Source: Propionibacteriales bacterium
GTDB taxonomy: Bacteria; Actinomycetota; Actinomycetes; Propionibacteriales; Propionibacteriaceae
Direction: 5' to 3'
NCBI GenBank assembly: GCA_021286985.1
Contig: JAJTBJ010000004.1
Coordinates: 1-40,071, forward strand
DNA length: 40,071 nucleotides
Shown here: piece after piece, positions 4,922 to 40,071 of the stretch
How the letters are laid out: every line of letters starts with the position of its first letter
Position numbering within the stretch: position 1 is the stretch's first letter
Notes under the pieces: model-generated
Database searches by the model: none
What the model was told of the DNA's origin: nothing
What the model saw: only the letters and a program-made list of their open reading frames with translations
Program-made: the position numbers and the translations under genes

Positions 4922-6634
4922 TCAGTCCTCGGCGAGCGCGGCACGCGCCTGGGCGACGAAGTGCGCCACGCAATCCTGGGGCTCGATGTCGCCCAGGTAG
5001 TAGCGCCGGATCGCCCGGCGTTCCTCGGCCTTCGGGTCGGCACCCAGCAGCGCGTCCAGCATGTCGTCCAGGCCGGTTGTTGAGCCGTCGGCGGCCACGT
5101 CGAACACGTAGGCGGCCTTGGCCAGCGGGAAGCTGGCCACGAATTCGTCGCCATGGCTGGAGACAGCCGCCATCGCGATCGGCTTGTTGGCGATCAGGAA
5201 GTCAGAGGCCACGCTGGACACGTCGGTGATCATCGCGTCACAGGCGTTGAAGCAGTCGATCACCGACCACTCCTTCTCGGCTTTCGGCCCGAACACGTGC
5301 TCGCGGCCGCTGGCCTGAGCGTCTTGGGTGAGCAGTTCGATGATCTGGGTGCAGGCTTCGGCGTTGACCGGCTTCAGCCGCGCGTACGGGTGCGGCCGGA
5401 AGACCACCGTGCAACCGCGTTCGAGGAGCTTCTCGACCAGCGGGCGTCCGCCGCGCAGTGAGCTGTAGTCGGAGTCGTCGTAGAAGCCCGACCAGGTGGG
5501 CGTGTACAGCACCCGGGGCGCGCTGAGTTGGCTGATCTCGGTGGTGGCCGGGACGACGTTCTCCAGCTGGGGGCGGCCGACGATGACCATCTGCTCCGGC
5601 AGCGTCGCCACGTGATGCAGGGCGAAGCGGTCGATCGCGGCCTGCCCGGCGACGAAGTTCTTGTCGTACTGCCGGAAGGTGGGACTGACGCTGGTGATCT
5701 TGTCGGAGTCGCCGTGGTTGAGCTGGATGTGCCGCAGGTGCGGGAACCGGATCATGTGGGCATTGCGCGCTGCGGTGTTGGCGTAGAACACGGCCTTCAG
5801 GCTGGGGCAGACGATCGGGTCGAGATCTTCTAGGCGCAGTCGCAGGATCACCGGCGCCGAGGTGAGCTTGCGGACCTCCTCGAAGTTGTCCCGGCTGCGC
5901 ACCAGCACGAAGTACGGCAGGCCGAGCCGATCGAGATAGGGCAGCCACATGGCCGCCTGGTAGGCGGTGCCGCGCGGTGCCTGCCAGTGGAAGGCGAATT
6001 CTGGCGCCAGCTTCTTCATCAGGCCCGGCAGTTTCGCTTCGAACCGGGTGCGGCGGTACAGGTAGCGCACCGCCTGGAACGACATCGCCCCGGCCAACAC
6101 CAGGCTGGCCACCGCGAGCACGACCGCGATCAGCGGCGGGACGCCGGGGATCAGGCTGAGCGCCAACGCCACCGCAGCGCCGAGGTTGACCAGATGGAAC
6201 GCGTTGGCCAGGCCGATCGACGGCACCGGTACGTCCACGGCGGCGATGTTGGCCGCCATCGGCAGGGCGGTGGCGACCGGCGGCTGCAGGGATTGCTCCA
6301 ACAGCGTCAACAAGCCGACGATCAAGCCGGCCAGCAGCACCCACGCACCCAGCGGCGCGACGCCGACGGAGACCGCGGCGATCACCATCACTCGGGCCAG
6401 CGCGTCCGCGCCCAGCCGCAGCGCGTCGCGATCGCTGGGATGCCCGATTACCCGGTAGGCCGACCAGGCGAACTCGGCGACCAGGAGCGTGATCGCGGCG
6501 GGTGCCAAGGCAGCCGGCAGCACGATGGCGGCGAAGAAGATGAACAGAGCAAGACCACTGACCACCGCTGTGCGGGCGTCGACCGCCCGGAGTCCACGCA
6601 GCAACTGAGCCCGCAGGCTGGCTGACGCTTTCAT
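4922..6634 (-). CDS. Membrane-anchored CDP-polyol phosphate transferase (TagF/TagB-type, Glyphos_transf)
   Basis: The 570-residue product has several hydrophobic segments in the first 185 residues, then a Glyphos_transf domain. Diagnostic motifs are LNHGDSDK (306-312, catalytic His-Gly type), YTPTWSGF (377-384), VFRPHPY (411-417) and DAMITDVSSVASDFL (466-480). The family transfers glycerol- or ribitol-phosphate from the CDP form to a growing teichoic acid or capsule at the inner membrane face. The ATG at 6634 has an AGGAGGACC ribosome binding site. It converges on the upstream GT2 with only 16 bp between stop codons and diverges from a paralogue. Donor choice cannot be read from the sequence. 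The fused CDP-ribitol-type enzyme nearby favours ribitol phosphate. Confidence 0.85.
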   Translation of the reverse strand: MKASASLRAQLLRGLRAVDARTAVVSGLALFIFFAAIVLPAALAPAAITLLVAEFAWSAYRVIGHPSDRDALRLGADALARVMVIAAVSVGVAPLGAWVLLAGLIVGLLTLLEQSLQPPVATALPMAANIAAVDVPVPSIGLANAFHLVNLGAAVALALSLIPGVPPLIAVVLAVASLVLAGAMSFQAVRYLYRRTRFEAKLPGLMKKLAPEFAFHWQAPRGTAYQAAMWLPYLDRLGLPYFVLVRSRDNFEEVRKLTSAPVILRLRLEDLDPIVCPSLKAVFYANTAARNAHMIRFPHLRHIQLNHGDSDKITSVSPTFRQYDKNFVAGQAAIDRFALHHVATLPEQMVIVGRPQLENVVPATTEISQLSAPRVLYTPTWSGFYDDSDYSSLRGGRPLVEKLLERGCTVVFRPHPYARLKPVNAEACTQIIELLTQDAQASGREHVFGPKAEKEWSVIDCFNACDAMITDVSSVASDFLIANKPIAMAAVSSHGDEFVASFPLAKAAYVFDVAADGSTTGLDDMLDALLGADPKAEERRAIRRYYLGDIEPQDCVAHFVAQARAALAED

Positions 6635-6667
6635 GGTCCTCCTGTTCGCGTAGGGCGACGCCTAACC

Positions 6668-6673
6668 TACACG
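6668..6673 (-). promoter_or_regulatory. Candidate -10 element for the first TagF-like gene
   Basis: TAGGTT on the minus strand lies about 33 nt before the ATG at 6634, leaving room for a short leader with its AGGAGG. No clear -35 box is visible. Confidence 0.35.
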
Positions 6674-6736
6674 CTCGCCGCGGACGGCCGTGGCCCGACT
6701 CGGGCGGGGGTGCCCGAGGTGTAAAGGGTGGCTCGC

Positions 6737-6742
6737 TAGGCT
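6737..6742 (+). promoter_or_regulatory. Candidate -10 element for the second TagF-like gene
   Basis: TAGGCT lies 26 nt upstream of the GTG at 6769. It is flanked by two direct copies of TGTAAAGGG (6720-6728 and 6753-6761), 33 bp apart. The second copy also provides the purine-rich ribosome binding site. No clear -35 box is visible. Confidence 0.35.
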
Positions 6743-6768
6743 GTGGTGACGCTGTAAAGGGGGCTGGT

Positions 6769-8385
6769 GTGTACCTGTGGGATCGCTACCGACGAGTACT
6801 CCGACGGGTCCTGCCCCGGCTGTTGGCCTGGCTCGCGGCCATAGTTGTCGTGTTGCTGGTGGTGCTCGGCCAGCCACTGATCGCCGGGGTGGTCACGGTG
6901 CTGGCCGCGGCCGCGTTGTGGTGGCAGGGCCGGCGGCCCGCCGCGCCGACGTCCGGTGCGGTGCTGGTGGCGATGGTGGTCGCGTTAGGGGTGGCGCCGG
7001 GCGCCGACGACCCGCGCACAGCAGCAGCACTGCTGATCGCGGTGGCGTTGCTGCTGATCCAGCCGCGGGCTGATCGGGCGGTCCGTCCGCGAGTGCGGGC
7101 GATCGGTCTGGGCGAGGCCCGTCCACCGCTCGCGCGCGTCTCCCACCCGATCCTGGTGGCCGGCTGTCTGGCGGTGGTGATGATCGCGCTGCGGGCGTCC
7201 GGGTTGGTCGGTGAACCGGTCACGCTCGCCGTGGTGGCGGTGGTCGCCGTCGCCGGAGCCCTGGTGGCCGGTGCCCAGCTGGTGCGCGCGCGGCGACGGG
7301 TGGACGCCACCGAGGTGCGCGCCGCGCTGGCCCGCTACGCGCCGCGGTACGCGGTGTACTACTCCGGGCCGGACGAGGGTGCCTACCAGCTGGAGCTCTG
7401 GTTGGCCCTGCTGGCCCGCTCGGGTGTCCCGGGCGTGCTCATCGTGCGAGAGCTCAGCTTCATGCCGATCGCCGCCGCGGTCAGCGATGCGCCGGTGATC
7501 TATGCGGAGTCGGTGGAGGCGATCGAATCGGTGCTGGTACCGGGCCTGACCACGGTCTTCTACGTGAACAACGAGGCGCGCAACGCCGAGATGGTGCGCT
7601 ACCCGGCGCTGCGGCACGTCCATTTGGGCCACGGCGACAGTGAGAAGCCGTCGAGCTATGCGGCGTTCACCGCGATCTACGACCAGATCTTCGTCGCCGG
7701 TCCTGCCGGCGCGCAGCGCTATGCCGACCATGGCGTGCGGATTCCGGCGGAGAAGTTCGTGATGATCGGACGTCCGCAGCTGGTCGGCGTCCTGGAGCGC
7801 GCCATCGAGCCGGGTCGACCGGCGACGGTGCTGTACGCCCCGACCTGGCGCGGCAGCATCTCCGACATGCAGTTGAGTTCACTCGACCAGGGGACGGCCA
7901 TCGTCGGCGCGCTGATCGCCGCCGGAGCGACGGTGATCTTCCGCCCACACCCGCTGTCGTACCGAGACGCCACCTCGCGGGCGCTGATCCGCCAGATCGA
8001 CGAGGTGCTCGCCCACGACGGCGGCAGTCACCTGGGGAGTCGGGAGGCGGACGCGTTGACGGCGTTCGAGTGCATGAACCGATCAACGGCGATGGTCGCC
8101 GACAACTCCAGCCTGGTGCCTGACTATTTGTTCACCGACAAGCCGTTCGCGTTGTGTCTGCCCTCGCTCACCGCGCCGGTGGCCGGCACGCGACTGGCCG
8201 ATGCGGCGATCCCGCTGGTGCTGGGCACTGACCCGTCCGAGGCGGTGGCGCGGCTGTTGGGCAGCGACGAGTTGGCAGGAAAGCGGGCTGCGGTGCGGGC
8301 GTACTACCTCGGCGACTCGGCGCTCAGCACGAATCTGGCGACGTTCGACGCAGCCGTGCAGGCTGCGCTCGCCGCCAAGGCCTAA
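6769..8385 (+). CDS. Second membrane-anchored CDP-polyol phosphate transferase (TagF-type)
   Basis: The 538-residue product is a divergent paralogue of the neighbouring minus-strand gene. About five hydrophobic segments in the first 175 residues precede a Glyphos_transf domain. Motifs are LGHGDSEK (286-293), YAPTWRGS (356-363), FRPHPLSYRD (391-400) and MVADNSSLVPDYLF (442-455). The catalytic-type His, the PTW and RPHP motifs and the acidic-Ser-Ser cluster are all kept, so it looks active. The GTG start is preceded by AAAGGGGG. Two such enzymes commonly divide primase and polymerase roles, or add different polyol phosphates. Which applies here is unknown. It converges on the CDP-ribitol-type gene with 18 bp between stops. 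Confidence 0.85.
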   Translation: MYLWDRYRRVLRRVLPRLLAWLAAIVVVLLVVLGQPLIAGVVTVLAAAALWWQGRRPAAPTSGAVLVAMVVALGVAPGADDPRTAAALLIAVALLLIQPRADRAVRPRVRAIGLGEARPPLARVSHPILVAGCLAVVMIALRASGLVGEPVTLAVVAVVAVAGALVAGAQLVRARRRVDATEVRAALARYAPRYAVYYSGPDEGAYQLELWLALLARSGVPGVLIVRELSFMPIAAAVSDAPVIYAESVEAIESVLVPGLTTVFYVNNEARNAEMVRYPALRHVHLGHGDSEKPSSYAAFTAIYDQIFVAGPAGAQRYADHGVRIPAEKFVMIGRPQLVGVLERAIEPGRPATVLYAPTWRGSISDMQLSSLDQGTAIVGALIAAGATVIFRPHPLSYRDATSRALIRQIDEVLAHDGGSHLGSREADALTAFECMNRSTAMVADNSSLVPDYLFTDKPFALCLPSLTAPVAGTRLADAAIPLVLGTDPSEAVARLLGSDELAGKRAAVRAYYLGDSALSTNLATFDAAVQAALAAKA

Positions 8386-8403
8386 GCCCGAGAGCGAGGG
8401 CGC

Positions 8404-9831
8404 CTAGCTGCCGGCTTCGGGGTCTTCCCACTGCAGTGCCGGGGCCGCGGTGCGCGCCCGTCCGCGGTGCTCCCGGCGCACGTCGATGACCAGGCCGGTG
8501 GCATTGGAGGTGATCATCTCCATCGCCGACTGGGCCACCAGTTCGGCCGGCAGCAGGGTGTCCGGCGGCTCCTGGCCGAAGGCCTGCTGCCGCATCGGGG
8601 TGTTGGTGCGCTCGGGGTTGATCACGTTGACGTGAATGCCGACCTCTGACCATTCCTCGCTGAGAGCCTGGGTGAGGTTGACCAGGGCGGCCTTGGTCGA
8701 GGAGTACAGCGCGTAGTTCTCGCGCCCCCGGGTGTAGGAGGACGAAGTGAACAGCAGCAGGTGACCCTTGCTCGCCTTGAGGTGCTGATAGGACGCCCGC
8801 GCCACGTTCACCGCAGCGGTGTAGTTGACGGTGATCGACTCGTTGACCACCTCGTCGGTGGCCTCGGCCAACGGACCGACGTGCAGGACGCCGGCGGTGA
8901 GCACGACGGCGTCCACCGCGCCGTACCTCATCGCGGCGGTGTCGAGGGCGGCGGCCAGTGAGGCCGCATCCTGAACGTGCAATCCGGTCGTGGAACGGCC
9001 GTGAGCGATGACGTTCATGCCGGCGTCCGTGGCCAGTCGGGCGATCTCGGCCCCGATGCCGTAGGAGCCGCCGAAGATCAGGATGGTCTTGCCGGCCAGG
9101 GCCTCGTGCAGTTCCTCGCGGCTGCGGTGGGCGGAGGATTCCGAAGCCAGCTGGAACAGCTTGTCGGCGATGAACAGGTCGACCGGGTAGGTCACCTTGA
9201 TGTTGTGCTCGGCGCCGAGGACGCACTTGATCTTGACGTCGGGGCGGTACTTCAGCACCACGCCACAGTCGTCGGAGGCGTTGAAGTAGGGATCTTCGAC
9301 GGCCAGTTCGTAGGCGCTGCGCAGCACTGACAGCCGGAAGGCCTGCGGGGTCTGGCCGCGACGCAGGGTGGCCCGGTTGGGAATGTGGGTGATGACGTCT
9401 TCGTCGTCGACGGTGACGATCGTGTCGGCCGACGGGATCACCACGTCCACGGCGCCGAAGTTGTCGAGCGCCTCGACGCATTCAGCAATGATCCGCTGGT
9501 CGAGCAGCGGACGGACCGCGTCGTGCAGCAGCAGCTTGCATTCGACCTCGCCGAGGGCATCCACCACCCGCCGAGTGGTCTCGTTGCGGGTCGATCCGCC
9601 TTCGAGGATGCGGCTGACCTTCGGGTAGCGATCGCCGAGCAGAGTGGCGACCCGCTCGGTCCATCCCGGGGTGACCATCACGATCACTTCGTCGATCTCG
9701 GGGGCAGCGTTGAACGTGTCCACGGTGTGCTCAAGGATGGTCTTCCCCGCCACCTTGATCATCTGCTTCGGGACGCTCAGCCCCAATCGGGCACCGACTC
9801 CGCCGGCAAGAACCACACCGTAGGTCTGCAT
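8404..9831 (-). CDS. Fused ribitol-5-phosphate cytidylyltransferase and ribulose-5-phosphate reductase (Bcs1/Acs1-like)
   Basis: Residues 1-230 form an IspD/TarI-type cytidylyltransferase with VVLAGGVGARLG (7-17), KQMIKVAGK (22-30), LLHDAVRP (101-108) and the basic TLRRGQTPQ region near 155-163. Residues 245-475 form a short-chain dehydrogenase with GGSYGIG (254-260), the catalytic Ser region TSSS (362-365) and YSSTK (376-380). Haemophilus Bcs1/Acs1 enzymes have this two-domain order, reducing ribulose-5-phosphate to ribitol-5-phosphate and then forming CDP-ribitol. That reaction suits the adjacent TagF-like transferases. The cytidylyltransferase half alone could be read as IspD, but the fusion and context argue against it. 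The ATG lies at 9831, with AAGGAGCTGA just upstream. Confidence 0.8.
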   Translation of the reverse strand: MQTYGVVLAGGVGARLGLSVPKQMIKVAGKTILEHTVDTFNAAPEIDEVIVMVTPGWTERVATLLGDRYPKVSRILEGGSTRNETTRRVVDALGEVECKLLLHDAVRPLLDQRIIAECVEALDNFGAVDVVIPSADTIVTVDDEDVITHIPNRATLRRGQTPQAFRLSVLRSAYELAVEDPYFNASDDCGVVLKYRPDVKIKCVLGAEHNIKVTYPVDLFIADKLFQLASESSAHRSREELHEALAGKTILIFGGSYGIGAEIARLATDAGMNVIAHGRSTTGLHVQDAASLAAALDTAAMRYGAVDAVVLTAGVLHVGPLAEATDEVVNESITVNYTAAVNVARASYQHLKASKGHLLLFTSSSYTRGRENYALYSSTKAALVNLTQALSEEWSEVGIHVNVINPERTNTPMRQQAFGQEPPDTLLPAELVAQSAMEMITSNATGLVIDVRREHRGRARTAAPALQWEDPEAGS

Positions 9832-9950: not shown

Positions 9951-13254
<3,304 letters not shown>

Positions 13255-14591: not shown

Positions 14592-15235
<644 letters not shown>

Positions 15236-15239
<4 letters not shown>

Positions 15240-16366
15240 GGCCGAGCCCGCAAGAACGTCCGGATCTCGGAGTGGACCCGATCGAGTTCGGATTCCGACA
15301 GGGCCGAGCCGCTGGGCAGCGACAGCCCGGTCTCGAACAGCCGCTGCGAGGTGCCGTTCACGGTGGCCGGTGCCCCGGCGAAGACCGGTTGCAGGTGCAT
15401 CGGCTTCCATAGCGGCCGCGACTCGATGTCCGCGGCGGTCAGAGCCGCGCCCAGGTCGCTGGCCTGCCAGCCCGCGACCGTCGGATCGACCAGGATCGCG
15501 GTCAGCCAGTTGTTGTCTTCGGAATCGTCGACGCCTCCGAAGATCTCCACCCCGGCCACGTCGGCGAACAGCTCGCGGTAGGCCTGACGGATCACCTTGC
15601 GGCGGCCGATCATCGCATCGAGCCGCTCCAGCTGGGCGCGTCCGAGGGCGGCCAGCAGGTTCGACATCCGGTAGTTGTAGCCGACCTCGGTGTGCTCGTA
15701 ATGGACGGCCGGTTGGCGGGCCTGGGTGGCCAGGTAGCGCACCCGGGCGGCCTGATCGCCGTCGTCGGTCAGCAGTGCGCCGCCGCCGGAAGTGGTCATG
15801 ATCTTGTTGCCATTGAACGACAGCGCGGCGAACGCGCCGAACGAGCCGGCCGGACGTCCACCGCGGGAAGCCCCGAGGGCCTCGGCCGCATCGCTGAGAA
15901 CCGGGATGCCGCGAGCGGCGGCCAGTGCGTCGATGCGGTCGTGGTCGACCACTTTGCCGAGCAGGTCGACCGGAACGACCGCTGCCGGGGTGATGCCCTG
16001 GGCGTCCAGCTTGCCCAGGGTGTCGGCGAGCAGGTCGGGGTCCATGTTGCCGGAGGCGTCAGAGTCGACGAAGTAGGGCTGCGCGCCGGTGTAGACGATG
16101 GCATTGGCGGTAGCGGCAAAGGTCATCGACGAAGTGACCACCACGTCACCGGCACCCACTCCGAGTGCGAGCAGCCCCAGATGGATCGCCGCCGTACCGG
16201 AAGACAGGGCTGCACAGTGCGCCCGTCCGCTCACCTCGGCCAGTGCGGCCTCGAAGGCGTCGACCTCCGGCCCGAGCGGGGCGACCCATCCGGAGCGAAT
16301 CGCCCGCACCAGGGCCTGCTCCTCACCCTCACCGACATCTGGCGCAGACAGGTAGATGCGCTTCAT
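15236..16366 (-). CDS. PglE/LegC-like UDP-4-amino-sugar aminotransferase (DegT/DnrJ/EryC1/StrS)
   Basis: The 376-residue product is a sugar aminotransferase with the PLP lysine in SFNGNKIMTTSGGG (Lys188), a SxGTAA phosphate-binding segment near 56-60, and SDAAEALGA (158-166), whose Asp contacts the pyridine ring. The SFNGNK form of the lysine motif is typical of the PglE/LegC group, which aminates UDP-4-keto-6-deoxy-GlcNAc. The ATG at 16366 shares one base with the dehydratase stop (TGATG), so the upstream extension of the frame is rejected. Position between a PglF-like and a PglC-like gene supports the bacillosamine-type assignment. Substrate stereochemistry remains inferred. Confidence 0.85.
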
Positions 16367-18258
16367 CACGACAGCTTCCCGGCCGAGTCGCGGTTCTCGG
16401 TAGTCGGCAGGTCGGTGTCGGCCCACACCTTCTGCCAATGGCTCCAGTCGAGTTCAGCAGGATCAAGCGGGGGAACTACGGCGTGGGAGATCTTGGGGTG
16501 GATCCGACGCTGGTCGTCCTCGTCGGCGGTCCACAGCACTTCATGCAGCTTCTCGCCTGGACGCAGCCCGGTGTAGACGATCTCGATCGGTCGGCCCGAC
16601 ATCTCAATCATCCGCTTGGCGATGTCGAGAATCTGCACCGGCTTGCCCATGTCGAGAATGAGCACCTCGCCCGGTTTGCCGATGGCACCGGCCTGCACCA
16701 CCAGTTGGCAGGCCTCCGGGATGGTCATGAAGTACCGGGTCACCTCGGGGTGGGTGATGGTCAGCGGGCCACCGTTTTCAATCATCGAGGTGAACAGCGG
16801 CAGCATCGAACCCCGGCTGCCAAGCACGTTACCGAAGCGCACCGACAGATAAGGACGTCCGACCTCGGCGCCCATCCGCGCCGTCAACCGTTCGGCCAGC
16901 CGCTTGGAATGTCCGAGGACGCTGCTGGGATCGGCGGCCTTGTCGGTCGAGATGTTGATGAAGGCGGCCACGTCGACCGAGCGGGCGGCTTCCAGAACGT
17001 TCTGGGTGCCCAGCACGTTGGTCTTCCACGCTTCGCTCGGGTATTGCTGGAGCATCGGCAGGTGCTTCAGCGCGGCCGCGTGGAACACCACCTCGGGTCG
17101 CCGGTCGGCGAAGATCGCGTTGAGGGCGGCGGTGTCGCGAATGTCAGCCAGCACCACATCGCGGCCGTCCAGCAGACCGTGGCCGAGGACGTTCAGCTCG
17201 GCGGCCTGCAGCCCGGATTCGTCGCGGTCGAGCATGATCAGTTCGGCCGGGTTGAAGCGGCTGATCTGGCGGCACAGCTCGGCGCCGATCGAGCCGCCCG
17301 CGCCGGTGACCATGACGCGTTTGCCGGAAAGATAGCCGGCGATCGACTCCACGTCGGTGTCGACCGGGCGGCGTCCGAGCAGGTCTTCGATGGACAGGTC
17401 GCGCAGGTCGGAGACCTCGGAAACGCCCCTGAGGACGTCATCGATGGGCGGCAGCACTTTGGCGTGGATGCCCAGCGGTGCGGCCACCTCGGCCACCCGG
17501 GTGAGCAGCGCGGCGTCCGCTTTGGCGATGGCGACCACCAGCACCTGGGCGCCGGTGAGTTCGCTCAGCTGCGGCAGATCCTCCAGAGTGCCCATCACCG
17601 GGACGTCGCGGATGCGGGCATGCAGCTTGCGCGGGTTGTCGTCGATGATCGCCACCGGGTCGTAGGACGACTGGGGATCGGTCTGCATGCGCCGGATCAG
17701 GCTTTCACCCAGGTAACCCGCGCCGTAGACGATGACGGGATCGGCACTGGTTGAGGTCGCGGAGACCTCCCGGGTGAGTCGGGCGAGGTAGCGCACCGCG
17801 AACATCGATACCAGCGCCATCGGCAGGGCCAACGGCACCGTGCCGCGGGGGACGCCGAAGGCGGGGCCGAAGATCAGGGTTCCGACGAACACGGGAACGG
17901 CAACCAGGGTGGTGGCGATCGTCAGCGAGCGGACTTCTTCGAACGACCCGTAGATGTACTTGCCTCGGTAGAGCCGCATCGCCAGGCCGATACCGGCCTG
18001 CAGTGCAATGGTGGCCAGCGCGAGCACCGCCGTCGCGGGCAGATTGACCACGCTCCAGGCAAGATCGAAGCGCAGCACCTGGGCGATGTAGAGGGTGACC
18101 AGCCACACGGCTGCGTCCAGGATGAACTGGGTCGAGAACCGCATCCGAGCGCCGACGAGTCGTCGAGAGACAGCCCGCCCGAAGTGGGCGACGGCGCGCT
18201 GGCCGGGTCCGAATCGCTCGAAGGGTGCCGACTGGGCTTCTCGACGCGACTCCACCAC
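16366..18258 (-). CDS. PglF/CapD-like membrane UDP-GlcNAc 4,6-dehydratase
   Basis: The 630-residue product has four N-terminal membrane segments, then a CoA-binding-like Rossmann region (VIVYGAGYLGESL), then the catalytic dehydratase domain. The latter shows VMVTGAGGSIGAELCRQ, FHAAALKHLPMLQ, INISTDKAADPSSVLG with SKR, and GLRPGEKLHE. Leu replaces the usual short-chain-dehydrogenase Tyr before xxSK, as is normal in this family where Met occupies that place. The enzyme converts UDP-GlcNAc to the 4-keto-6-deoxy sugar. GTG 18258 is preferred because GGAG lies 5 nt upstream. GTG 18276 is possible. It heads a coupled three-gene operon. Confidence 0.88.
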   Translation of the reverse strand: MVESRREAQSAPFERFGPGQRAVAHFGRAVSRRLVGARMRFSTQFILDAAVWLVTLYIAQVLRFDLAWSVVNLPATAVLALATIALQAGIGLAMRLYRGKYIYGSFEEVRSLTIATTLVAVPVFVGTLIFGPAFGVPRGTVPLALPMALVSMFAVRYLARLTREVSATSTSADPVIVYGAGYLGESLIRRMQTDPQSSYDPVAIIDDNPRKLHARIRDVPVMGTLEDLPQLSELTGAQVLVVAIAKADAALLTRVAEVAAPLGIHAKVLPPIDDVLRGVSEVSDLRDLSIEDLLGRRPVDTDVESIAGYLSGKRVMVTGAGGSIGAELCRQISRFNPAELIMLDRDESGLQAAELNVLGHGLLDGRDVVLADIRDTAALNAIFADRRPEVVFHAAALKHLPMLQQYPSEAWKTNVLGTQNVLEAARSVDVAAFINISTDKAADPSSVLGHSKRLAERLTARMGAEVGRPYLSVRFGNVLGSRGSMLPLFTSMIENGGPLTITHPEVTRYFMTIPEACQLVVQAGAIGKPGEVLILDMGKPVQILDIAKRMIEMSGRPIEIVYTGLRPGEKLHEVLWTADEDDQRRIHPKISHAVVPPLDPAELDWSHWQKVWADTDLPTTENRDSAGKLS

Positions 18259-18312
18259 TCCGTCTCCTGAATTCACCGACCGCGGTGCTCATTCCTGAGC
18301 ATTTCCGGGCAA

Positions 18313-18318
18313 ATCATA
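18313..18318 (-). promoter_or_regulatory. Candidate -10 element for the pglF-like operon
   Basis: TATGAT on the minus strand, inside GGGTATGAT, lies 54 nt upstream of the GTG at 18258. It predicts a leader of about 48 nt that includes the GGAG ribosome binding site. No good -35 hexamer is seen at 16-18 bp. Confidence 0.4.
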
Positions 18319-18624
18319 CCCGAGTTGGCTTTGCTGGTCGCGTCGGTGGGCGCCCGCCTGCCGACGTGCCGAGGCCTGGGACGGGCAGGTGCATCCCCGT
18401 CCCCCCAAGTCAGTGGCACTCCACTGGTGCGACGGTGGTGGTGGCGGCAGTGTCGAGGAGAAGAACAAATTGCGAAGGACTGCTTTGCATCCTGGAATCA
18501 GCCTCGACTTCCATGCCGCGGTGGGTACTCACGAAACGTGAGGTGTGGTAATACCGAGATTCCGCAGACCATTTCTTCAGCTCGTCGGTGAGGAGCGACG
18601 ATCGAGGGGAAGGGGAGCGGCGGG
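18319..18624. other. Non-coding spacer between the PglD-like and PglF-like genes
   Basis: About 300 bp without a convincing gene. It holds a hairpin CAGTGG-CACT-CCACTG (18411-18426) and a dyad CTCACG-AAA-CGTGAG (18528-18542), either of which could be an operator or processing site. Neither has a T-run. A minus-strand frame of 74 codons (18634-18410) starts only with TTG and matches nothing I know. Base composition looks less GC-rich here than in the flanking genes. Confidence 0.4.
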
Positions 18625-19272
18625 CTAGCTCCAACGCCCCGGTACCCCGACCACGGTCACTCCCGGCGGGACGTCGTGGGTGACGCAGGCGCAGGCACCG
18701 ATGGTCACATCAGGCCCGACGCTGAGCCCTTGCAGAACGACCGCACCGGCACCCACCAATACGCGGGTGCCGATCCCTACCTCGCCGGAGATGATGGCGC
18801 CAGGGTTCACCGAAACGAAATCAGCAAGGTCGGCGTCGTGCCCGACTGTGGCGTTGGGGTTGATATGGACGTGTCTGCCGAGGCGCAGATTGGTGGACAG
18901 CTGAACCCCGCCACAGATGATGCTGCCCTCGCCAATTGTGCCGACCGACCCGAGGATGACCGTCGGATGCACGAGGGTCGCCGGAAGCCAGCCATGCGCG
19001 TCGAACTGCGCGGCCAGTTGCTGCCGAATCGCGGGGTGCCCGACGGCTAAGGCGTAGTGGCCGGGCTCTCCGGCCAGAGCGTCGCTGATCGAACCGAGCC
19101 AGCGGTAGCCGCGGGCTGCGAGCCGCTGAAGGTTCACCTCGCTGGGCCGATCATCCAGTACGCCGCGCACTTCATAGATGGGGCTGGCCGACGCAGAGAC
19201 AATCGCTTCAATCACGTCGAGGGTCTGGCGGCCGAATCCGCCGGCGCCCACCACAACCAGTTCAGTGGTCAT
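18625..19272 (-). CDS. PglD/NeuD-like UDP-4-amino-sugar N-acetyltransferase
   Basis: The 215-residue product has an N-terminal Rossmann-like domain (LVVVGAGGFGRQTLDVIEA) and a C-terminal left-handed beta helix of hexapeptide repeats. NPNATVGHDADLADF places His145 and Asp146 where PglD has its catalytic base. The end, GVTVVGVPGR, is family-typical. PglD acetylates the 4-amino group of UDP-4-amino-4,6-dideoxy-GlcNAc to finish UDP-di-N-acetylbacillosamine. ATG 19272 is preferred over 19293 because AGG lies 5 nt upstream and the protein then starts at the Rossmann strand. It points the same way as the pglF-like operon but about 370 bp upstream of it, so it may have its own promoter. Confidence 0.85.
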   Translation of the reverse strand: MTTELVVVGAGGFGRQTLDVIEAIVSASASPIYEVRGVLDDRPSEVNLQRLAARGYRWLGSISDALAGEPGHYALAVGHPAIRQQLAAQFDAHGWLPATLVHPTVILGSVGTIGEGSIICGGVQLSTNLRLGRHVHINPNATVGHDADLADFVSVNPGAIISGEVGIGTRVLVGAGAVVLQGLSVGPDVTIGACACVTHDVPPGVTVVGVPGRWS

Positions 19273-19375
19273 GCTTGCCTCGAATCTGCTCATCGTGATC
19301 GGTAGCCGTACATCGTGCAGGCCAAGTTGTAGGGCGGCTGGCGCCCGGGTGGGTTCGGGCAAGATGCTACCGCCA

Positions 19376-19527: not shown

Positions 19528-20061
19528 TTGTATATGGCACGTTCAAGCGATTCTGCCGACCCAGGACCCACGGCCGATTTCTTTGTGCATCCGCTTGCTG
19601 ATGTGGCGAGTGTAAACGTGGGGCCCGGCTCCCGTATCTGGCAATTCTGCGTTGTGCTTGAAGGTGCCCGACTGGGGAGCGACTGCAACATCTGTTCCCA
19701 TGTGTTCATTGAGAATGATGTGATCGTGGGCGATCGTGTGACCGTCAAGAACGGCGTGCAACTCTGGGATGGGCTGCGAGTTGGCAACGATGTTTTCATC
19801 GGCCCGAATGTCACTTTCTCCAATGATCGATATCCGCGCAGCAAGCAGCACCCTGATCGGTTTGAGCAGACCGTCGTCGAAGATGGCGCCTCCATCGGGG
19901 CCGGTGCGGTCTTCGTCCCTGGCGTCCGAGTGGGATCGGGCGCGCTTGTTGCGGCGGGCGCAGTGGTGACCAAGGATGTACCGCCCCACACGTTGGTGAT
20001 GGGCAACCCGGCGCGGGTCGTGCGCACGGTTGACGGCGAAGGAAAGGGTGAATCCCAGTGA
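19528..20061 (+). CDS. Hexapeptide N-acetyltransferase, FdtC/QdtC or WlbB/WbpD-like
   Basis: The 177-residue product is a left-handed beta-helix acetyltransferase with SRIWQFCVVLEGARLG, CNICSHVFIENDV, VTVKNGVQLWDG and FIGPNVTFSNDRYPRSK, signatures of enzymes that acetylate 3-amino groups on nucleotide sugars. FdtC/QdtC act on dTDP-3-amino-3,6-dideoxyhexoses, while WlbB/WbpD act on UDP-3-amino-uronates. The adjacent aminotransferase and ketoisomerase favour the dTDP route. TTG 19528 has GGGAG at good spacing. ATG 19534 is the alternative. The 3' end overlaps the aminotransferase start by four bases. Codon choice looks slightly less GC-rich than in the rhamnose genes. Confidence 0.85.
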   Translation: MYMARSSDSADPGPTADFFVHPLADVASVNVGPGSRIWQFCVVLEGARLGSDCNICSHVFIENDVIVGDRVTVKNGVQLWDGLRVGNDVFIGPNVTFSNDRYPRSKQHPDRFEQTVVEDGASIGAGAVFVPGVRVGSGALVAAGAVVTKDVPPHTLVMGNPARVVRTVDGEGKGESQ

Positions 20062-21167
20062 GTCGAGTCCCGGTGAACGATCTTGCGCGGGACCCGAACA
20101 TGGACGCGGACCTGGCGCTGGTGAGCCGAACAGTCCACAGCGGATGGTTCGTTCTGGGTTCGCAGGTCAAGGCATTCGAGGCCGAATTCGCTGCCTACCT
20201 CGGCGCTCGTGACGCCGTGGGGGTGGGCAACGGGACCGACGCGCTCATGCTCGCCATGCGAGCCGTTGGGGTGGAACCCGGTGACCGTGTGGTGATGGCT
20301 GCGAATGCAGGCATGTACAGCGCTGCGGCCGCTGTTGCCGTTGGGGCTGTGCCCGAGTGGGTCGATGTTCTCCCCAGCCGCGGTTCGCTTGACCCCGCAG
20401 CGCTCGCCGACCATGTGGCCCAATCGAAGCCGGCTGCGGTGGTGGTCACCCATCTGTACGGATTGATGGCGGAGGTGGAGCAGATCTCCCAGATCTGTCA
20501 GGCGGCCGGCGTCCCTCTCATCGAGGACTGTGCGCAGGCTGCGGGGGCGTCCGCCGGCGGCAGGTTTGCTGGCACCTGGGGCGACTGCGCCACCTTCTCC
20601 TTCTACCCCACCAAGAACCTGGCCGCATGGGGCGATGCGGGTGCGGTCGTGAGCAATAGCGAGGCCATCGTCGATCGGGTCCGCCGCCTGCACCAATATG
20701 GCTGGACCAGTCGTTACCGCGCTGAGATTCCCTACGGCGTCAACAGCCGGATGGACGAGATCCAGGCGACGGTCCTGCGCGCGAGGCTCACGCGACTGGA
20801 CGAGGGCAATCAACGTCGGCGCAGCATCATGAGCCGTTATGTCGCGGCCGCTCCGCAGGGCGTGCGTGTGTTCTTCGAAGACTCCACTGCGTGCGTGGCC
20901 CACTTGTCCGTGCTGGTGTTCGGGTCTGAACAGGAACGGGACAATGCCCGCACGGCGCTCGATGCGGCCAACGTCGCGACCGACGTTCACTACCCCATTC
21001 CTGACTACCGCCAACCCGCGATGGCGGCCTATTCAGCTGGGGTCGACCTGCCCACGACTCAGGATTTGGCGCGCCGAGTGCTGACCATTCCGTGCTTCCC
21101 TGGACTGACCGATGTTGAGGTGGATCAGGTGTGCCTCGCACTGAGTTCGCTGCAGGCCGAGGTATAG
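20058..21167 (+). CDS. dTDP-3-amino-3,6-dideoxyhexose aminotransferase (FdtB/QdtB-like, DegT family)
   Basis: The 369-residue product opens VPVNDLAR, with VGVGNGTDAL (phosphate binding), PLIEDCAQAAGA (cofactor-ring Asp) and the PLP lysine in SFYPTKNLAAWGDAG (Lys186). The SFYPTKNLxxxGDxG form is characteristic of the DesV/TylB/FdtB/QdtB group that aminates C3 of dTDP-3-keto-6-deoxyhexoses. GTG 20058 overlaps the upstream acetyltransferase stop (GTGA), showing coupled translation. The ketoisomerase that would make its 3-keto substrate is the next gene. Whether the product has galacto or gluco configuration (Fuc3N or Qui3N) is not decidable by eye. Confidence 0.88.
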   Translation: MSRVPVNDLARDPNMDADLALVSRTVHSGWFVLGSQVKAFEAEFAAYLGARDAVGVGNGTDALMLAMRAVGVEPGDRVVMAANAGMYSAAAAVAVGAVPEWVDVLPSRGSLDPAALADHVAQSKPAAVVVTHLYGLMAEVEQISQICQAAGVPLIEDCAQAAGASAGGRFAGTWGDCATFSFYPTKNLAAWGDAGAVVSNSEAIVDRVRRLHQYGWTSRYRAEIPYGVNSRMDEIQATVLRARLTRLDEGNQRRRSIMSRYVAAAPQGVRVFFEDSTACVAHLSVLVFGSEQERDNARTALDAANVATDVHYPIPDYRQPAMAAYSAGVDLPTTQDLARRVLTIPCFPGLTDVEVDQVCLALSSLQAEV

Positions 21168-21176
21168 GCTTTCGGG

Positions 21177-22004
21177 GTGCAGCAGCAGCAGATTGGTGAC
21201 CAAGACTCGCCGTCGAGGTTTGGGCCTGATGTTGTGATCGATCCTGCCGCCGAGGTCGGTATCGGTGCGCTCATCACCGGCAAGGTGGCGGTGCTCGGAT
21301 CGACGAAGATCGGCCCGGGAGTGGTGATCGAAGGGCCGCGGTTGGGTCCTCCCATGGCGATCGGCCCGGACGCAGTGGTGGGCGCTGGCTCGGTGATCAG
21401 CATGGCGAGCGTGGGTGCGCGAGCCGTCCTGCAGGCGGGCTCAGTGGTGACCCGGCGGGTGCCGTCCGACGCTGTCATCGGCGGAAGTGAGGGGCGGCTG
21501 CTGCGGACCCGTCCCGGAAGCGCACCTCAGACCTCACCTTCGACGCCCGCATCTGCTGCATCGCTGATCCCTCGGGAATCTCTCCTGACGCTGCGCCTGG
21601 TTGACGATATGAGGGGCGCCCTGGTCGCCGGCGAATACCCGGGGCAGCTGCCCTTCGCCGTGTCTCGGTTCTTCACCGTGTTCGGAGTCCCCGGCCCGGA
21701 GGTGCGGGGCGAGCATGCCCACCGGGAGTGCCATCAGTTGCTCGTGGCTGTGGCCGGAACGCTGGAAGTGGTCTGCGACGATGGTTTCGAAAGCAGGTCC
21801 TACTCGCTGTCGAGGCCCGAAGTAGCCCTCCACATCCCGCCGATGGTCTGGGGAGTCCAGCACCAGTACAGCTCGGATGCGGTGTTGCTTGTGCTCGCCT
21901 CCCACGCCTACGACTCTGATGACTACATCCGAGACTATGAGGAATTCAAACGGCTCGCGGGTGAGCGGGCCGCATCGATCGAGCAGCAGCGGGCGGCCAC
22001 TTGA
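21177..22004 (+). CDS. Hexapeptide-repeat domain fused to dTDP-4-keto-6-deoxyglucose 3,4-ketoisomerase (WxcM/FdtA/QdtA-like)
   Basis: Residues about 16-105 of 275 form a short left-handed beta-helix (IGPGVVIEG, IGPDAVVGAGS, LQAGSVVTRRVPSDAV). A Ser/Pro/Ala linker follows, then a cupin from about 130: MRGALVAGEYPGQLPF, VRGEHAHRECHQLL with His180 and His182, and YDSDDYIRDYEEF near the end. These are diagnostic of the FdtA/QdtA 3,4-ketoisomerases. Bifunctional WxcM/FdtD enzymes join an acetyltransferase to this cupin, but the helix here is unusually short and a separate acetyltransferase lies two genes upstream. It uses a GTG start. The stop overlaps the flippase TTG. Confidence 0.85.
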   Translation: MQQQQIGDQDSPSRFGPDVVIDPAAEVGIGALITGKVAVLGSTKIGPGVVIEGPRLGPPMAIGPDAVVGAGSVISMASVGARAVLQAGSVVTRRVPSDAVIGGSEGRLLRTRPGSAPQTSPSTPASAASLIPRESLLTLRLVDDMRGALVAGEYPGQLPFAVSRFFTVFGVPGPEVRGEHAHRECHQLLVAVAGTLEVVCDDGFESRSYSLSRPEVALHIPPMVWGVQHQYSSDAVLLVLASHAYDSDDYIRDYEEFKRLAGERAASIEQQRAAT

Positions 22005-34567: not shown

Positions 34568-37044
<2,477 letters not shown>

Positions 37045-37048
<4 letters not shown>

Positions 37049-37776
37049 GCGATCGACCCGCTTCCGGCCAGCCGCTGCGGCGACTGCGCCCGCCACCAGC
37101 TGACGATCTCGGCCAGCGCCGGATCGGCGTCCGCTCCGTTCAGGGAGAAGTCGCCACGGTCATAGGCCTCGGCGAGGGCTGCGGCGGCGTCCGGGGTGAC
37201 GCCGAGCTTGTTCAGCACGTAGGAGTTCAGGCCGTGCAGTCGGATCGGCGATCCGTAGGCCTTGGCGAACGGCGGCAGATCGTGGGTGACCGGCGAGCCC
37301 ATGCCGACCATCGAGCCGGAACCGATGATCCGGTACTGATGGACGCTGGCGTTCATGCCGAGGTTGCAGTGAGCGCCGATGACCGCGTGACCGCCCACCC
37401 GGACGCCGGCCGACAGTGTGACGTCAGCGCCGATCAGGCAATCGTGAGCGACGTAGACACTGTTGAGCAGCCAACTGCCCGCGCCGATCGTGGTGGTGCG
37501 GTGACTGCCTTGATGAATGGTCGACAGCTCCCTGATCACGACGTCGTCGCCGATCTCGACGCCGCAATGATCGAGGTCTCCCTCCCAGGCGACGTTCTGT
37601 CGACGCGAGCCCATCTCCGGAGGCGTGCCGATGACCACGTGGGGTCCGATCCACACCCGGTCGCCGATGGTCAGCGGGCCCAGCAGCACGGCGCCGGGGC
37701 CGACCACCACGTCGCTGCCGAGGGTGACACCGTCGCCAACGGTCGCGCTGGGGTGGATGCGAGCTGCCGCAGCCAT
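37045..37776 (-). CDS. LpxA-like UDP-amino-sugar acyltransferase
   Basis: The 243-residue product has LpxA architecture: a hexapeptide beta-helix over residues 6-170 and a helical C-terminus (RLHGLNSYVLNKLG then LAEAYDRG). Key LpxA features are IRELSTIHQG, VAHDCLIG with the His111-Asp112 catalytic pair, GGHAVIG (His130), ASVHQYRIIG (His146) and VGMGSPVTHDLPPFAKAYG. LpxA transfers an acyl chain from acyl-ACP to O3 of UDP-GlcNAc, or N3 of UDP-GlcNAc3N in some species. An AGGTGA ribosome binding site supports the ATG. It diverges from a DegT and a Gfo/Idh gene resembling gnnB and gnnA. No lpxC, lpxD or lpxB is present, so a non-lipid-A role is likely. Confidence 0.82.
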
Positions 37777-37995
37777 GCGGTCACCTTTCTTGGCGCTCGA
37801 TCAAGGGGCGTGGCCTGGCCTGCGGCAGGAGCGTGTTCGCCGTCACGCAGGCCGCGCCAATGGTAACCGAAGCGTCGCCGATGCGGGCTGCGCTGTCGGG
37901 GCGTCCGGGTGGGCCAGGCGGGGGCAACGTTTTACCTGGCCACCTCGGCGATTCTTCGCTCGGCTGCGGCCCCGGAATCCCGCTTTCGCTTGTAG

Positions 37996-38001
37996 TAGCC
38001 T
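37996..38001 (+). promoter_or_regulatory. Candidate -10 element for the gnnB-like operon
   Basis: TAGCCT lies 41 nt before the GTG at 38043 and touches the left arm of a strong inverted repeat. No convincing -35 box is seen. Confidence 0.3.
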
Positions 38002-38031
38002 GTGCAGCGTTTCAGCCGGTCCGCTGCACAG
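38000..38031 (+). promoter_or_regulatory. Inverted repeat / leader hairpin upstream of the gnnB-like gene
   Basis: CTGTGCAGCG (38000-38009) and CGCTGCACAG (38022-38031) are perfect 10-bp inverted repeats around a 12-nt loop. The right arm ends against the probable ribosome binding site (AGAGAG, 38030-38035). It could be a repressor operator overlapping the promoter or an RNA hairpin controlling translation. Confidence 0.6.
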
Positions 38032-38042
38032 AGAGTCATCTC

Positions 38043-39140
38043 GTGATACCCGTTTCCACAGTCCGATTAGGGGCTGAAGTCACCGACCGCGTTCTTGCCG
38101 TACTGGCCTCGGGCATCATCGCCCAGGGGCCGGTCGTGGCCGAGTTCGAGAGCCGTTTCGCCGAGTTGATCGGCGCGGAGCATGCGGTGGCGGTGAACAA
38201 CGGCACCACCGCGTTGGTGGCGGCCATCCAGGCCCTCGATCTTCAACCAGGCGACGAGGTGATCACCAGCCCGTTCACGTTCATCGCCACGCTGAACGCG
38301 ATTCTGCAGGCTGGGGCGACCGCCCGCTTCGCCGACATCACCACCGACGACTTCTGCCTGGACGCCGCCTCGGTGCAGGCGCAGGTGACCGAGCGCACCA
38401 AGGTGCTGATGCCGGTGCACCTGTACGGCCAGGCTGCTGACATGACCGCGCTGATGCCCATCGCCGCCGAGCACGGCCTGGCGGTGGTCGAGGATGCCGC
38501 CCAGGCCCACGGCGCCACGATCGAGGGACGGGGGGCGGGCACCTTCGGGACCGGCTGCTTCTCCTTCTACGCCACCAAGAACCTCACCACCGGTGAGGGC
38601 GGCATGATCACCACCAACGATGCGGTCATGGCCGACAAGCTGCGGGTGCTGCGCAACCAGGGCATGCGGGCTCGCTACGAGTACGTCATGGCCGGTCACA
38701 ACTACCGGCTCACCGATCTGCAGGCTGCGGTGGTGCTGCCGCAGCTCGACACCTATGCCGACCAGGTTGCCGCTCGCCGGGCCAATGCCGCCGGGCTGTC
38801 CGAGCGCTTGGCTGACATCGAAGGTCTGGTGCTGCCCACCGAACGTGCCGGACGTGGCCACGTCTGGCATCAGTACACGGTGCTGTTGCCTGAGGGCGTC
38901 GATCGGGGCGGCTTCGTCGACGCGCTGGCTGCGGCCGGGGTGGGCGCGGGCATCTACTACCCCAAGCCGGTCTACGACTACGACACCTACCGGGGTCGCT
39001 CCGACGTGATCGTCACTGAGACTCCAGTGGCCGACGCGGTCGCCGCCCGGTGCGTGTCCCTTCCGGTGCACCAGCACTTGCAGCCCGGCGATGTCGACAC
39101 CATCGCGGCCGCCGTCCGCTCCGTGTTGGGGCAGTCGTGA
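38043..39140 (+). CDS. DegT-family sugar-nucleotide 3-aminotransferase, GnnB/WbpE-like
   Basis: The 365-residue product has the DegT fold: LGAEVTDRVLAVLASG at the start, AVNNGTTALVAAI, TSPFTFIATLNAIL, VVEDAAQAHGA, and the PLP lysine in SFYATKNLTTGEGGM (Lys179). The sequence favours enzymes acting on UDP-3-keto-hexosamines (GnnB, WbpE/WlbC). GTG 38043 is chosen because it opens the fold properly. The frame extends upstream to 37833, but that extension crosses the promoter hairpin. The stop overlaps the oxidoreductase start (GTGA), so substrate is probably passed from that enzyme. Perosamine-type C4 activity cannot be excluded. Confidence 0.85.
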   Translation: MIPVSTVRLGAEVTDRVLAVLASGIIAQGPVVAEFESRFAELIGAEHAVAVNNGTTALVAAIQALDLQPGDEVITSPFTFIATLNAILQAGATARFADITTDDFCLDAASVQAQVTERTKVLMPVHLYGQAADMTALMPIAAEHGLAVVEDAAQAHGATIEGRGAGTFGTGCFSFYATKNLTTGEGGMITTNDAVMADKLRVLRNQGMRARYEYVMAGHNYRLTDLQAAVVLPQLDTYADQVAARRANAAGLSERLADIEGLVLPTERAGRGHVWHQYTVLLPEGVDRGGFVDALAAAGVGAGIYYPKPVYDYDTYRGRSDVIVTETPVADAVAARCVSLPVHQHLQPGDVDTIAAAVRSVLGQS

Positions 39141-40071
39141 CCGGCCCGCGCATCGCCCTGGTGGGCGCCGGCTCGATGGGACGCAACCACGCCCGGGTGA
39201 TCGCCGACAGTGCCGATGCTGAACTGGTGGCGGTGATCGATCCGAATCAGGCTGCCGCCCAGCCGATCGCCGACAAGTACGGCGCGACCTGGTTCGCCGA
39301 CCTCGCCGGGCTGAGCGGCGCGGACGCCGTCGTGGTCGCTGCATCCACTGAGCATCACTACAGCATCACTTCGGAGATCCTCCGCGCCGGGCTGCCCGTC
39401 CTGGTCGAGAAGCCGGTCTGCCCGTCCTTGAGCCAGACCCTGGAGATCCTCGACGCGAGCGCGACCGCGGGGGTGCCGATCATGTGCGGCCTGCTGGAGC
39501 GCTACAACCCGGCGGTGATGGCGGCGATGAAGATGATCGAGGAGCCGCTGTATGCCCGGGCAGAGCGGCACTCGCCGTACGCGCCCCGGATCAAGACCGG
39601 GGTGGCCTGGGACCTGCTCGTCCACGACGTCGACCTGGTCTCCCAATTGTTCGGCGGCGAGGATCCGCGCTCGGCCAATGTCGAGGTCGGCCACTTCCAC
39701 CCCTCATCGGTGCCCGGCGCCGAAGACGTCATCGACGTGGCCATGTCGTTCTCCACGGGCGTCGCCTCAGCCTCGGCCAGCCGGATCGGCCAGCGTAAGG
39801 TGCGCTCGCTGATGGTGCAGACGCTCACCTCCATGGTTGAGGTCGATCTGCTGCGTCGCGGGGTCACCCTCTATCGCCACACCACGATCACCGAGGACGA
39901 CGCCCTGGGTGGTGCCGGCTTCCGTCAGGTCACCGAGATGGAGGTGCCCGAGATCATCGGACGGGAACCGCTGGCCACCCAGTTGGACCGCTTCCTCGGC
40001 CTGATCGCGGGCACGGTGGACGCTGACGCCGAGCGCTCCTCGATCATCCCCGCCCACCGCATCGTCGACCG
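39137..40071 (+). CDS. Gfo/Idh/MocA oxidoreductase, GnnA/WbpB-like (3' end cut by window)
   Basis: The visible 311 residues begin RIALVGAGSMGRNHARVIA, an NAD-binding Rossmann motif. VLVEKPVCPS follows (Glu91-Lys92-Pro93, the family's catalytic Lys), then AWDLLVHDVDLVSQLFG, an acid-xxx-His-Asp-x-Asp motif common in sugar-nucleotide members. GnnA and WbpB oxidise C3 of UDP-GlcNAc or its uronate, making the ketone that a DegT enzyme aminates. GTG 39137 overlaps the aminotransferase stop. The frame is open to the window end, and the usual family length of 320-350 suggests only a short piece is missing. Confidence 0.88.
   Translation, partial: MTGPRIALVGAGSMGRNHARVIADSADAELVAVIDPNQAAAQPIADKYGATWFADLAGLSGADAVVVAASTEHHYSITSEILRAGLPVLVEKPVCPSLSQTLEILDASATAGVPIMCGLLERYNPAVMAAMKMIEEPLYARAERHSPYAPRIKTGVAWDLLVHDVDLVSQLFGGEDPRSANVEVGHFHPSSVPGAEDVIDVAMSFSTGVASASASRIGQRKVRSLMVQTLTSMVEVDLLRRGVTLYRHTTITEDDALGGAGFRQVTEMEVPEIIGREPLATQLDRFLGLIAGTVDADAERSSIIPAHRIVD

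Follow-up and report, generated by a model that had tools for sequence, protein, structure and literature searches.

The window analyzed here, 40,071 nucleotides long, is an entire contig (C122) of a Propionibacteriales bacterium (G000), a metagenome-assembled genome (MAG) of 2.63 Mb in 294 contigs that is ~90% complete. At its right end lie a gene for an LpxA-like acyltransferase (P0001), an intergenic gap, and genes for a DegT aminotransferase (P0002) and a Gfo/Idh oxidoreductase (P0003), the trio with which this report is concerned (Table 1). The start of P0002 was placed by choice at a GTG codon, within an open reading frame (ORF) that opens at 37833, and its stop codon overlaps the start of P0003 by the sequence GTGA. 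P0003 is cut by the contig end at 311 residues, compared with 326 in the nearest relative. A scan of positions 36900–39200 for sigma-70-type consensus sequences gave no match. The initial annotation of this DNA had described an LpxA-type protein with a His-Asp pair and a helical C terminus, divergent from a coupled aminotransferase and oxidoreductase, and each of these elements was borne out (H111-D112, the modeled helices, and the GTGA overlap).

Table 1. Features at the right end of the window
Feature	Positions	Strand	Basis
LPG_synthase_TM membrane protein, next gene downstream after the acyltransferase gene	36041-37096	-	Pfam
LpxA-like left-handed beta-helix acyltransferase P0001, 243 aa, no internal stop	37045-37776	-	ORF, Pfam, structure, tree
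Divergent intergenic region between acyltransferase and aminotransferase, 266 bp	37777-38042	.	Sequence
DegT/DnrJ/EryC1/StrS aminotransferase P0002, 365 aa, GnnB/WbpE-like; predicted 3-keto-sugar aminotransferase	38043-39140	+	Pfam, NCBIfam, solved relatives
Gfo/Idh/MocA oxidoreductase P0003, GnnA-like; predicted UDP-N-acetylglucosamine (UDP-GlcNAc) 3-dehydrogenase	39137-40071	+	Pfam, NCBIfam

Linkage and distribution of the trio

The trio is a conserved and rare actinobacterial module. The proteins of the window were compared by tblastn with the surroundings of 14 actinobacterial loci whose acyltransferases group with P0001, and both partners were found within ~8 kb of the acyltransferase at 12 of them (the window, L033, L025, L012 [Herbihabitans], L046, L047, L026, L028, L048, L142, L143, and L144). 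The two unlinked loci are L027, an 8.8-kb contig with no partner, and L029, which has the aminotransferase only and a long branch. At L026 and L143 the oxidoreductase belongs to another subfamily, which leaves P0003-type trios at 10 of the 14 loci. The acyltransferase and aminotransferase genes are directly divergent in L033, L025, L046, L048, L142, and L144. A further locus, L032 (G123), was not counted: its hexapeptide protein is QdtC-like, though DegT and Gfo/Idh genes adjoin it.

Across a sample of 394 genomes of the class, a profile of the acyltransferase clade matches 7 genomes (1e-40) and the P0003-type oxidoreductase matches 5 (1e-50), all among the 7; G124 and G600 are the genomes that have the acyltransferase without a P0003-type match at 1e-50. 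Without G000, all 4 oxidoreductase genomes fall among the 6 acyltransferase genomes of 393, a co-occurrence with a hypergeometric p of 1.5e-8, in a test that treats genomes as independent; the four other genomes come from four families. P0001 is matched by 10 of 196 relatives at 1e-15 (its own genome included; not all are clade members) and, across the phylum, in 5 of 396 at 1e-20, again with its own included. Among the genomes of the named collection, the closest is that of “Actinobacteria bacterium HGW-Actinobacteria-2,” which is unclassified below phylum at the National Center for Biotechnology Information (NCBI).

Fold, residues, and phylogeny of the acyltransferase

Pfam assigns to P0001 hexapeptide repeats (Hexapep) and the LpxA C-terminal domain PF13720 (positions 1–41 of 82), and the solved proteins nearest to it in sequence are LpxA proteins, headed by that of Burkholderia (4eqy, E = 1.1e-32). 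It falls below both NCBIfam LpxA cut-offs (NF003657, 162 versus 226 bits; TIGR01852, 149.6 versus 231 bits). A profile of ten clade members ranks 4eqy first (182 bits) and Pcryo_0615 of Psychrobacter cryohalolentis (8e62, 189 aa) sixth (164 bits), and with phage proteins added to the profile 8e62 comes first (220 versus 205 bits). The title of the 8e62 entry names an N-acetyltransferase required for a diacetamido-2,3-dideoxy sugar.

The structure used for comparison was the second AlphaFold model of P0001 (24 sequences, predicted local distance difference test [pLDDT] score 83); a first model (4 sequences, pLDDT 66) matched right-handed beta-helices such as pectate lyases, was deemed misfolded, and was discarded. 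The second model consists of a beta-helix and C-terminal helices at residues 185–190, 195–206, and 219–230. It matches LpxA chains with Z scores of 23.5–26.2 over 221–232 residues and 8e62 with a Z score of 21.6 over 179 aligned residues, at 36% identity, the highest identity among 50 rows; the fit to WlbB, a 3-N-acetyltransferase (3mqg), is poorer (Z 17.1, 24% identity). In the structural alignment the first aligned residue of P0001, residue 2, stands opposite residue 21 of E. coli LpxA. The protein had been called full-length, which is right insofar as its ORF is intact, but it is about one coil short relative to the E. coli enzyme.

The H111-D112 pair of P0001 aligns with H125-D126 of E. 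coli LpxA, and H146-Q147 are the equivalents of H160-Q161; in the alignment, 14/14 clade rows conserve the residues that correspond to H125, H160, Q161, and N198. The position of LpxA G173, the hydrocarbon ruler, is occupied by Met (M159 in P0001) in 13/14 clade rows, in Pcryo_0615, in 14/14 phage rows, and in 3/3 NeuD rows, and in only one of 14 LpxA rows, that of Pseudomonas aeruginosa. A GxPxE loop (GTPPE at position 50 of P0001) occurs in 13/14 clade rows, 12/14 phage rows, and Pcryo_0615; the pattern is also present in 2/14 LpxA rows, but there it lies near the C terminus. The equivalent of Asp74 of E. coli LpxA is Met or Asn in P0001, depending on the alignment, and Asp in neither. A candidate signature, Gln73 to Glu, was dropped because the two alignments disagree in that loop (Glu in one, Gln in the other).

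We then placed P0001 in a tree of 51 proteins, with the root set by choice on the NeuD rows. Three of the 50 set rows were left out of this tree and of an earlier one: the second hexapeptide protein of L011, the QdtC-like protein of L032, and the archaeal acyltransferase of L040. All 14 LpxA rows fall into a single group (98/97), and a 100/100 branch separates LpxA, LpxD, and one L030 protein from the other rows. Moderate support (87/67) is obtained for a single group of the 14 actinobacterial rows, P0001 among them, and Pcryo_0615 joins the phage proteins (98/95). The earlier tree, from which the solved sequences were absent, is split in the same way. Forcing the P0001 clade and LpxA into one clade is rejected (approximately unbiased [AU] test, p = 0.001), and forcing the P0001 clade together with Pcryo_0615 is weakly rejected (AU p = 0.032). 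The actinobacterial acyltransferases are therefore best taken as a family of their own and not as LpxA. An identification of the protein as LpxA itself accordingly fails on both the curated cut-offs and the tree. The initial annotation had set a grouping with acetyl-CoA-using acetyltransferases against its own proposal, and half of this was found: the clade lies outside LpxA, but it does not join Pcryo_0615. A NeuD/PglD type was also considered for P0001 and rejected, the NeuD rows lying behind a 100/100 branch.

Other relatives came to light in the same comparisons. At L030:8169-9871, in an actinobacterium of the same order (G154, 8.1 Mb), LpxA-like and LpxD-like genes stand side by side; the LpxA-like protein falls in the LpxA/LpxD part of the tree and the LpxD-like protein falls with LpxD. 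An ordinary LpxA gene with low third-position GC is found at L031:12627-13394 in a MAG of the same genus (G003:C343), possibly on a contaminating stretch. From IMG/VR viral contigs, 80 of 123 loci were kept (L055–L134) and 79 gave an ORF; many encode proteins of ~160 aa, 30–46% identical to P0001. All 14 viral relatives placed in the tree have the ruler-position Met, and Pcryo_0615 groups with some of them.

The sugar, the pathway, and the acyl donor

P0002 is assigned to the DegT family (Pfam E = 2.4e-119) and P0003 to the Gfo/Idh family (Pfam E = 1.3e-23). The best NCBIfam model for P0003 is UDP-GlcNAc 3-dehydrogenase (NF040723, E = 3.1e-39), ~50 bits above inositol dehydrogenase, and among solved structures P0003 matches 7bvj best (29% identity over 273 residues), an entry that we take to be GnnA of A. 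ferrooxidans, although this could not be confirmed. Position 3 of the sugar is the target of both LpxA and Pcryo_0615, and C3 of the UDP-GlcNAc sugar is likewise the probable target of P0001. Pcryo_0615 acts with an aminotransferase and a 3-dehydrogenase. In the published route, GnnA oxidizes C3 of UDP-GlcNAc and GnnB aminates the product to UDP-2-acetamido-3-amino-2,3-dideoxyglucose (UDP-GlcNAc3N), as reported in PMC5644692. P0003 and P0002 would be the corresponding 3-dehydrogenase and 3-aminotransferase, the likeness of P0002 to GnnB being that of a DegT aminotransferase adjoining a GnnA-like gene; no GnnB sequence was compared.

We consider that the trio probably makes an N-acylated 3-amino sugar nucleotide for an actinobacterial cell-surface glycan. 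P0003 would oxidize C3 of UDP-GlcNAc with NAD(P)+, and P0002 would move an amino group from an amino acid donor onto the 3-keto sugar to give UDP-GlcNAc3N. P0001, expected from its fold to be a trimer and predicted to be a UDP-GlcNAc3N 3-N-acyltransferase, most likely an N-acetyltransferase, would acylate this amine with His111 as base, the likeliest group being acetyl from acetyl-CoA. The product, on the best reading, is UDP-2,3-diacetamido-2,3-dideoxyglucose, which the glycosyltransferases of the locus may then use directly or after further changes. We infer the substrates, the order of the steps, the donor, the oligomer, and the final polymer from the protein families, the linkage, the phylogenetic place and signature residues of P0001, the absence of lpxB and lpxC where they were searched, and a relative without a 6-dehydrogenase over cut-off (G025, below). 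Two further DegT genes of the window each have a hexapeptide acetyltransferase gene nearby, which we also count in favor of this reading.

Such a trio would work like the GnnA-GnnB-LpxA start of the pathway to lipid A containing 2,3-diamino-2,3-dideoxyglucose (GlcN3N) and like the Wbp and Pcryo routes, and it is identical to neither. P0001 shares with LpxA, including that of Leptospira (3hsq), the left-handed beta-helix, the C-terminal helices, the catalytic His, and the equivalents of H160-Q161 and N198; it differs in lying outside the LpxA group and below both cut-offs, in its shorter helix, and in its G173-to-Met replacement and GxPxE loop. These last two features, the Met standing in the sequence GMG, are shared with Pcryo_0615, which is shorter and in the tree groups with phage proteins, outside the P0001 clade.

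A difference from the bacteria that make GlcN3N lipid A is that no lipid A genes were found. A search for lpxB in G000 found none in this ~90% complete MAG, and lpxC was not found in 11/11 carrier genomes; lpxD and lpxK were not searched, and controls were matched in 4/14 in both searches. Lipid A enzymes were likewise reported as not found in the seven Gram-positives examined in PMC3087551. For want of lpxC and lpxB, a lipid-A-like glycolipid was dropped as a product, and the unusual glycolipid suggested earlier finds no support. The other part of that suggestion, a surface-glycan pathway of the 3-amino-GlcNAc type in the absence of lipid A, is supported by the lpxB and lpxC results, by the best model for P0003 (itself below cut-off), and by G025.

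Several observations weigh against the diacetamido reading. P0003 scores far below the cut-off of NF040723 (135 versus 450 bits), a model of archaeal proteins, and in the oxidoreductase tree 7bvj, on a long branch, sits weakly with archaeal proteins and is not sister to P0003; we call P0003 GnnA-like and only a possible ortholog of GnnA. P. aeruginosa LpxA has Met at the ruler position, yet its entry title names a 3-hydroxydecanoyl product, so this Met is no proof of an acetyl donor. The P0001 clade is not joined to Pcryo_0615, as noted above, and the C-terminal part from N184 comprises 60 residues in P0001 versus 24 in the Pcryo_0615 stretch used. We know of no assayed member of the P0001 clade. 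Finally, a nucleotide-sugar dehydrogenase over cut-off is present in 9/11 carrier genomes, in the nearest case (G478) ~27 kb from the trio.

This last point also favors a Wbp-type route, in which C6 of UDP-GlcNAc is oxidized first and the product is the 2,3-diacetamido-2,3-dideoxyglucuronic acid nucleotide UDP-GlcNAc3NAcA or its 2-epimer. The product of Pcryo_0615 needs a 6-dehydrogenase as well. By the title of a cited paper, that product is a glucuronic-acid sugar. The enzyme classes of the trio and the order of their C3 chemistry equal those of WbpB, WbpE, and WbpD, and the Wbp route begins with 6-oxidation of UDP-GlcNAc, as described in PMC10622841. P0002 matches WbpE at 3.9e-60, and two archaeal relatives of P0003 adjoin a nucleotide-sugar dehydrogenase. 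The mannuronic counterpart, ManNAc3NAcA, is reported from the wall polysaccharide of Cutibacterium acnes (PMC6598116), an earlier example of a 2,3-diacetamido sugar in an actinobacterial wall. However, no dehydrogenase over cut-off is closer than ~27 kb to any trio, and that of G000 is nearer the UDP-glucose type (360 bits with TuaD, cut-off 700, versus 154–157 bits with two UDP-ManNAc dehydrogenase models). The closest relative, G025 (88% identity, 98% complete, 0% contaminated), has the P0003-type trio and no nucleotide-sugar 6-dehydrogenase over cut-off, only a ~20-bit fragment; the same result was obtained for G058 (98% complete), whose oxidoreductase (L026) is of the other subfamily. If such a gene is not hidden in the missing 2%, G025 runs its trio without a 6-carboxyl sugar, and this favors a GnnA/GnnB-like route that starts at UDP-GlcNAc over the uronic-acid route of Wbp type; we regard the latter as quite improbable.

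The donor could instead be an acyl-acyl carrier protein, from which P0001 would transfer a medium-chain 3-hydroxyacyl group to UDP-GlcNAc3N to give a lipid-like or hydroxyacyl-decorated sugar. The LpxA fold across almost the whole of P0001 (Z 26.2), the invariant equivalents of H111 and H146-Q147 (14/14), the helical C terminus, and the pairing of a ruler-position Met with a C10 product in P. aeruginosa are all consistent with this. We nevertheless think it very unlikely in view of the rejected union with LpxA, the replaced Asp74 equivalent, and the lpxC and lpxB results. Equally doubtful is a route in which P0003 and P0002 act on inositol, glucose, or a dTDP-sugar and P0001 N-acylates that product: P0003 does match inositol 2-dehydrogenases (4hkt, E = 4.1e-19; TIGR04380, E = 2.4e-24), and the best match of P0002 is perosamine synthetase (7.2e-72), with scyllo-inositol and NtdA-type aminotransferases among its other matches, but the P0001 relatives LpxA and Pcryo_0615 use UDP-GlcNAc-type sugars according to their entry titles, and UDP-GlcNAc 3-dehydrogenase leads the models for P0003.

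The surrounding glycan locus and longer clusters

The rest of the window consists of genes of a surface glycan locus (rhamnose-type, UDP-galactopyranose mutase, and CDP-polyol-type). The LPG_synthase_TM gene has a possible TTG start at 37048–37046 that would overlap the acyltransferase stop codon (TTGA), and a relative of it is present in 5 other clade loci. At 4922–6634 and 6769–8385, CDP-glycerol glycerophosphotransferase domains adjoin a single ORF (8404–9831) that fuses an IspD-type (ribitol-5-phosphate) cytidylyltransferase with a short-chain dehydrogenase domain; the whole of 4922–9831 is teichoic-acid-like. Another single ORF (9951–11432) fuses RmlC (dTDP-4-dehydrorhamnose 3,5-epimerase) and RmlD (reductase) domains. 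A phosphoglycosyltransferase gene and the genes for a NeuD/PglD-type acetyltransferase, a UDP-GlcNAc 4,6-dehydratase-like protein, and a LegC-like aminotransferase (14592–19362) look bacillosamine-type, and an FdtA-like isomerase gene with its own DegT aminotransferase and hexapeptide genes (19528–22004) resembles a set for a dTDP-3-acetamido-3,6-dideoxyhexose.

The trio of the two nearest relatives (L011/L033, which are one record, and L025) is directly followed by genes for a dehydratase-like short-chain protein (containing YAAGK and either TSEVYG or SSEVYG), a second DegT aminotransferase, and a second hexapeptide acetyltransferase, and an ArnC/PgfS-like sugar transferase gene adjoins the extended cluster; these gene names all lie below the cut-offs of named models. 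In L028 and L142 the oxidoreductase gene lies next to a relative of this second hexapeptide gene. G000 yielded nothing close to the dehydratase-like gene (best 36%), and because this MAG is incomplete we draw no conclusion about the rest of its operon. If all of these enzymes act on one sugar, it could be a 2,3,4-triamino-2,3,4,6-tetradeoxyhexose that has acyltransferases of its own and is attached to a lipid carrier, a tentative proposal that we hold to be unlikely; in a weaker form of it, the LpxA-like enzyme would use a donor longer than acetyl. A 2,3,4-triacetamido pentose is reported from Psychrobacter (PMC8040287).

Routes to 2,3-diamino sugars are known, and what is new here is a variant with an LpxA-like but non-LpxA acyltransferase in actinobacteria. 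Among the matches listed from the open-access literature, titles and the beginnings of abstracts describe no LpxA-like protein with GnnA/GnnB-like partners in Actinomycetota. The trio points to a 2,3-diamino sugar route in this phylum, one that may begin at UDP-GlcNAc and involve no 6-dehydrogenase, and P0001 and its relatives point to a branch that lies between the acetyl-transferring and the acyl-transferring beta-helix enzymes. Because LpxA-type proteins pass for markers of lipid A and an outer membrane, annotation by name would mislead here, where a distinct LpxA-like family belongs to a conserved sugar-nucleotide module of Gram-positive bacteria.

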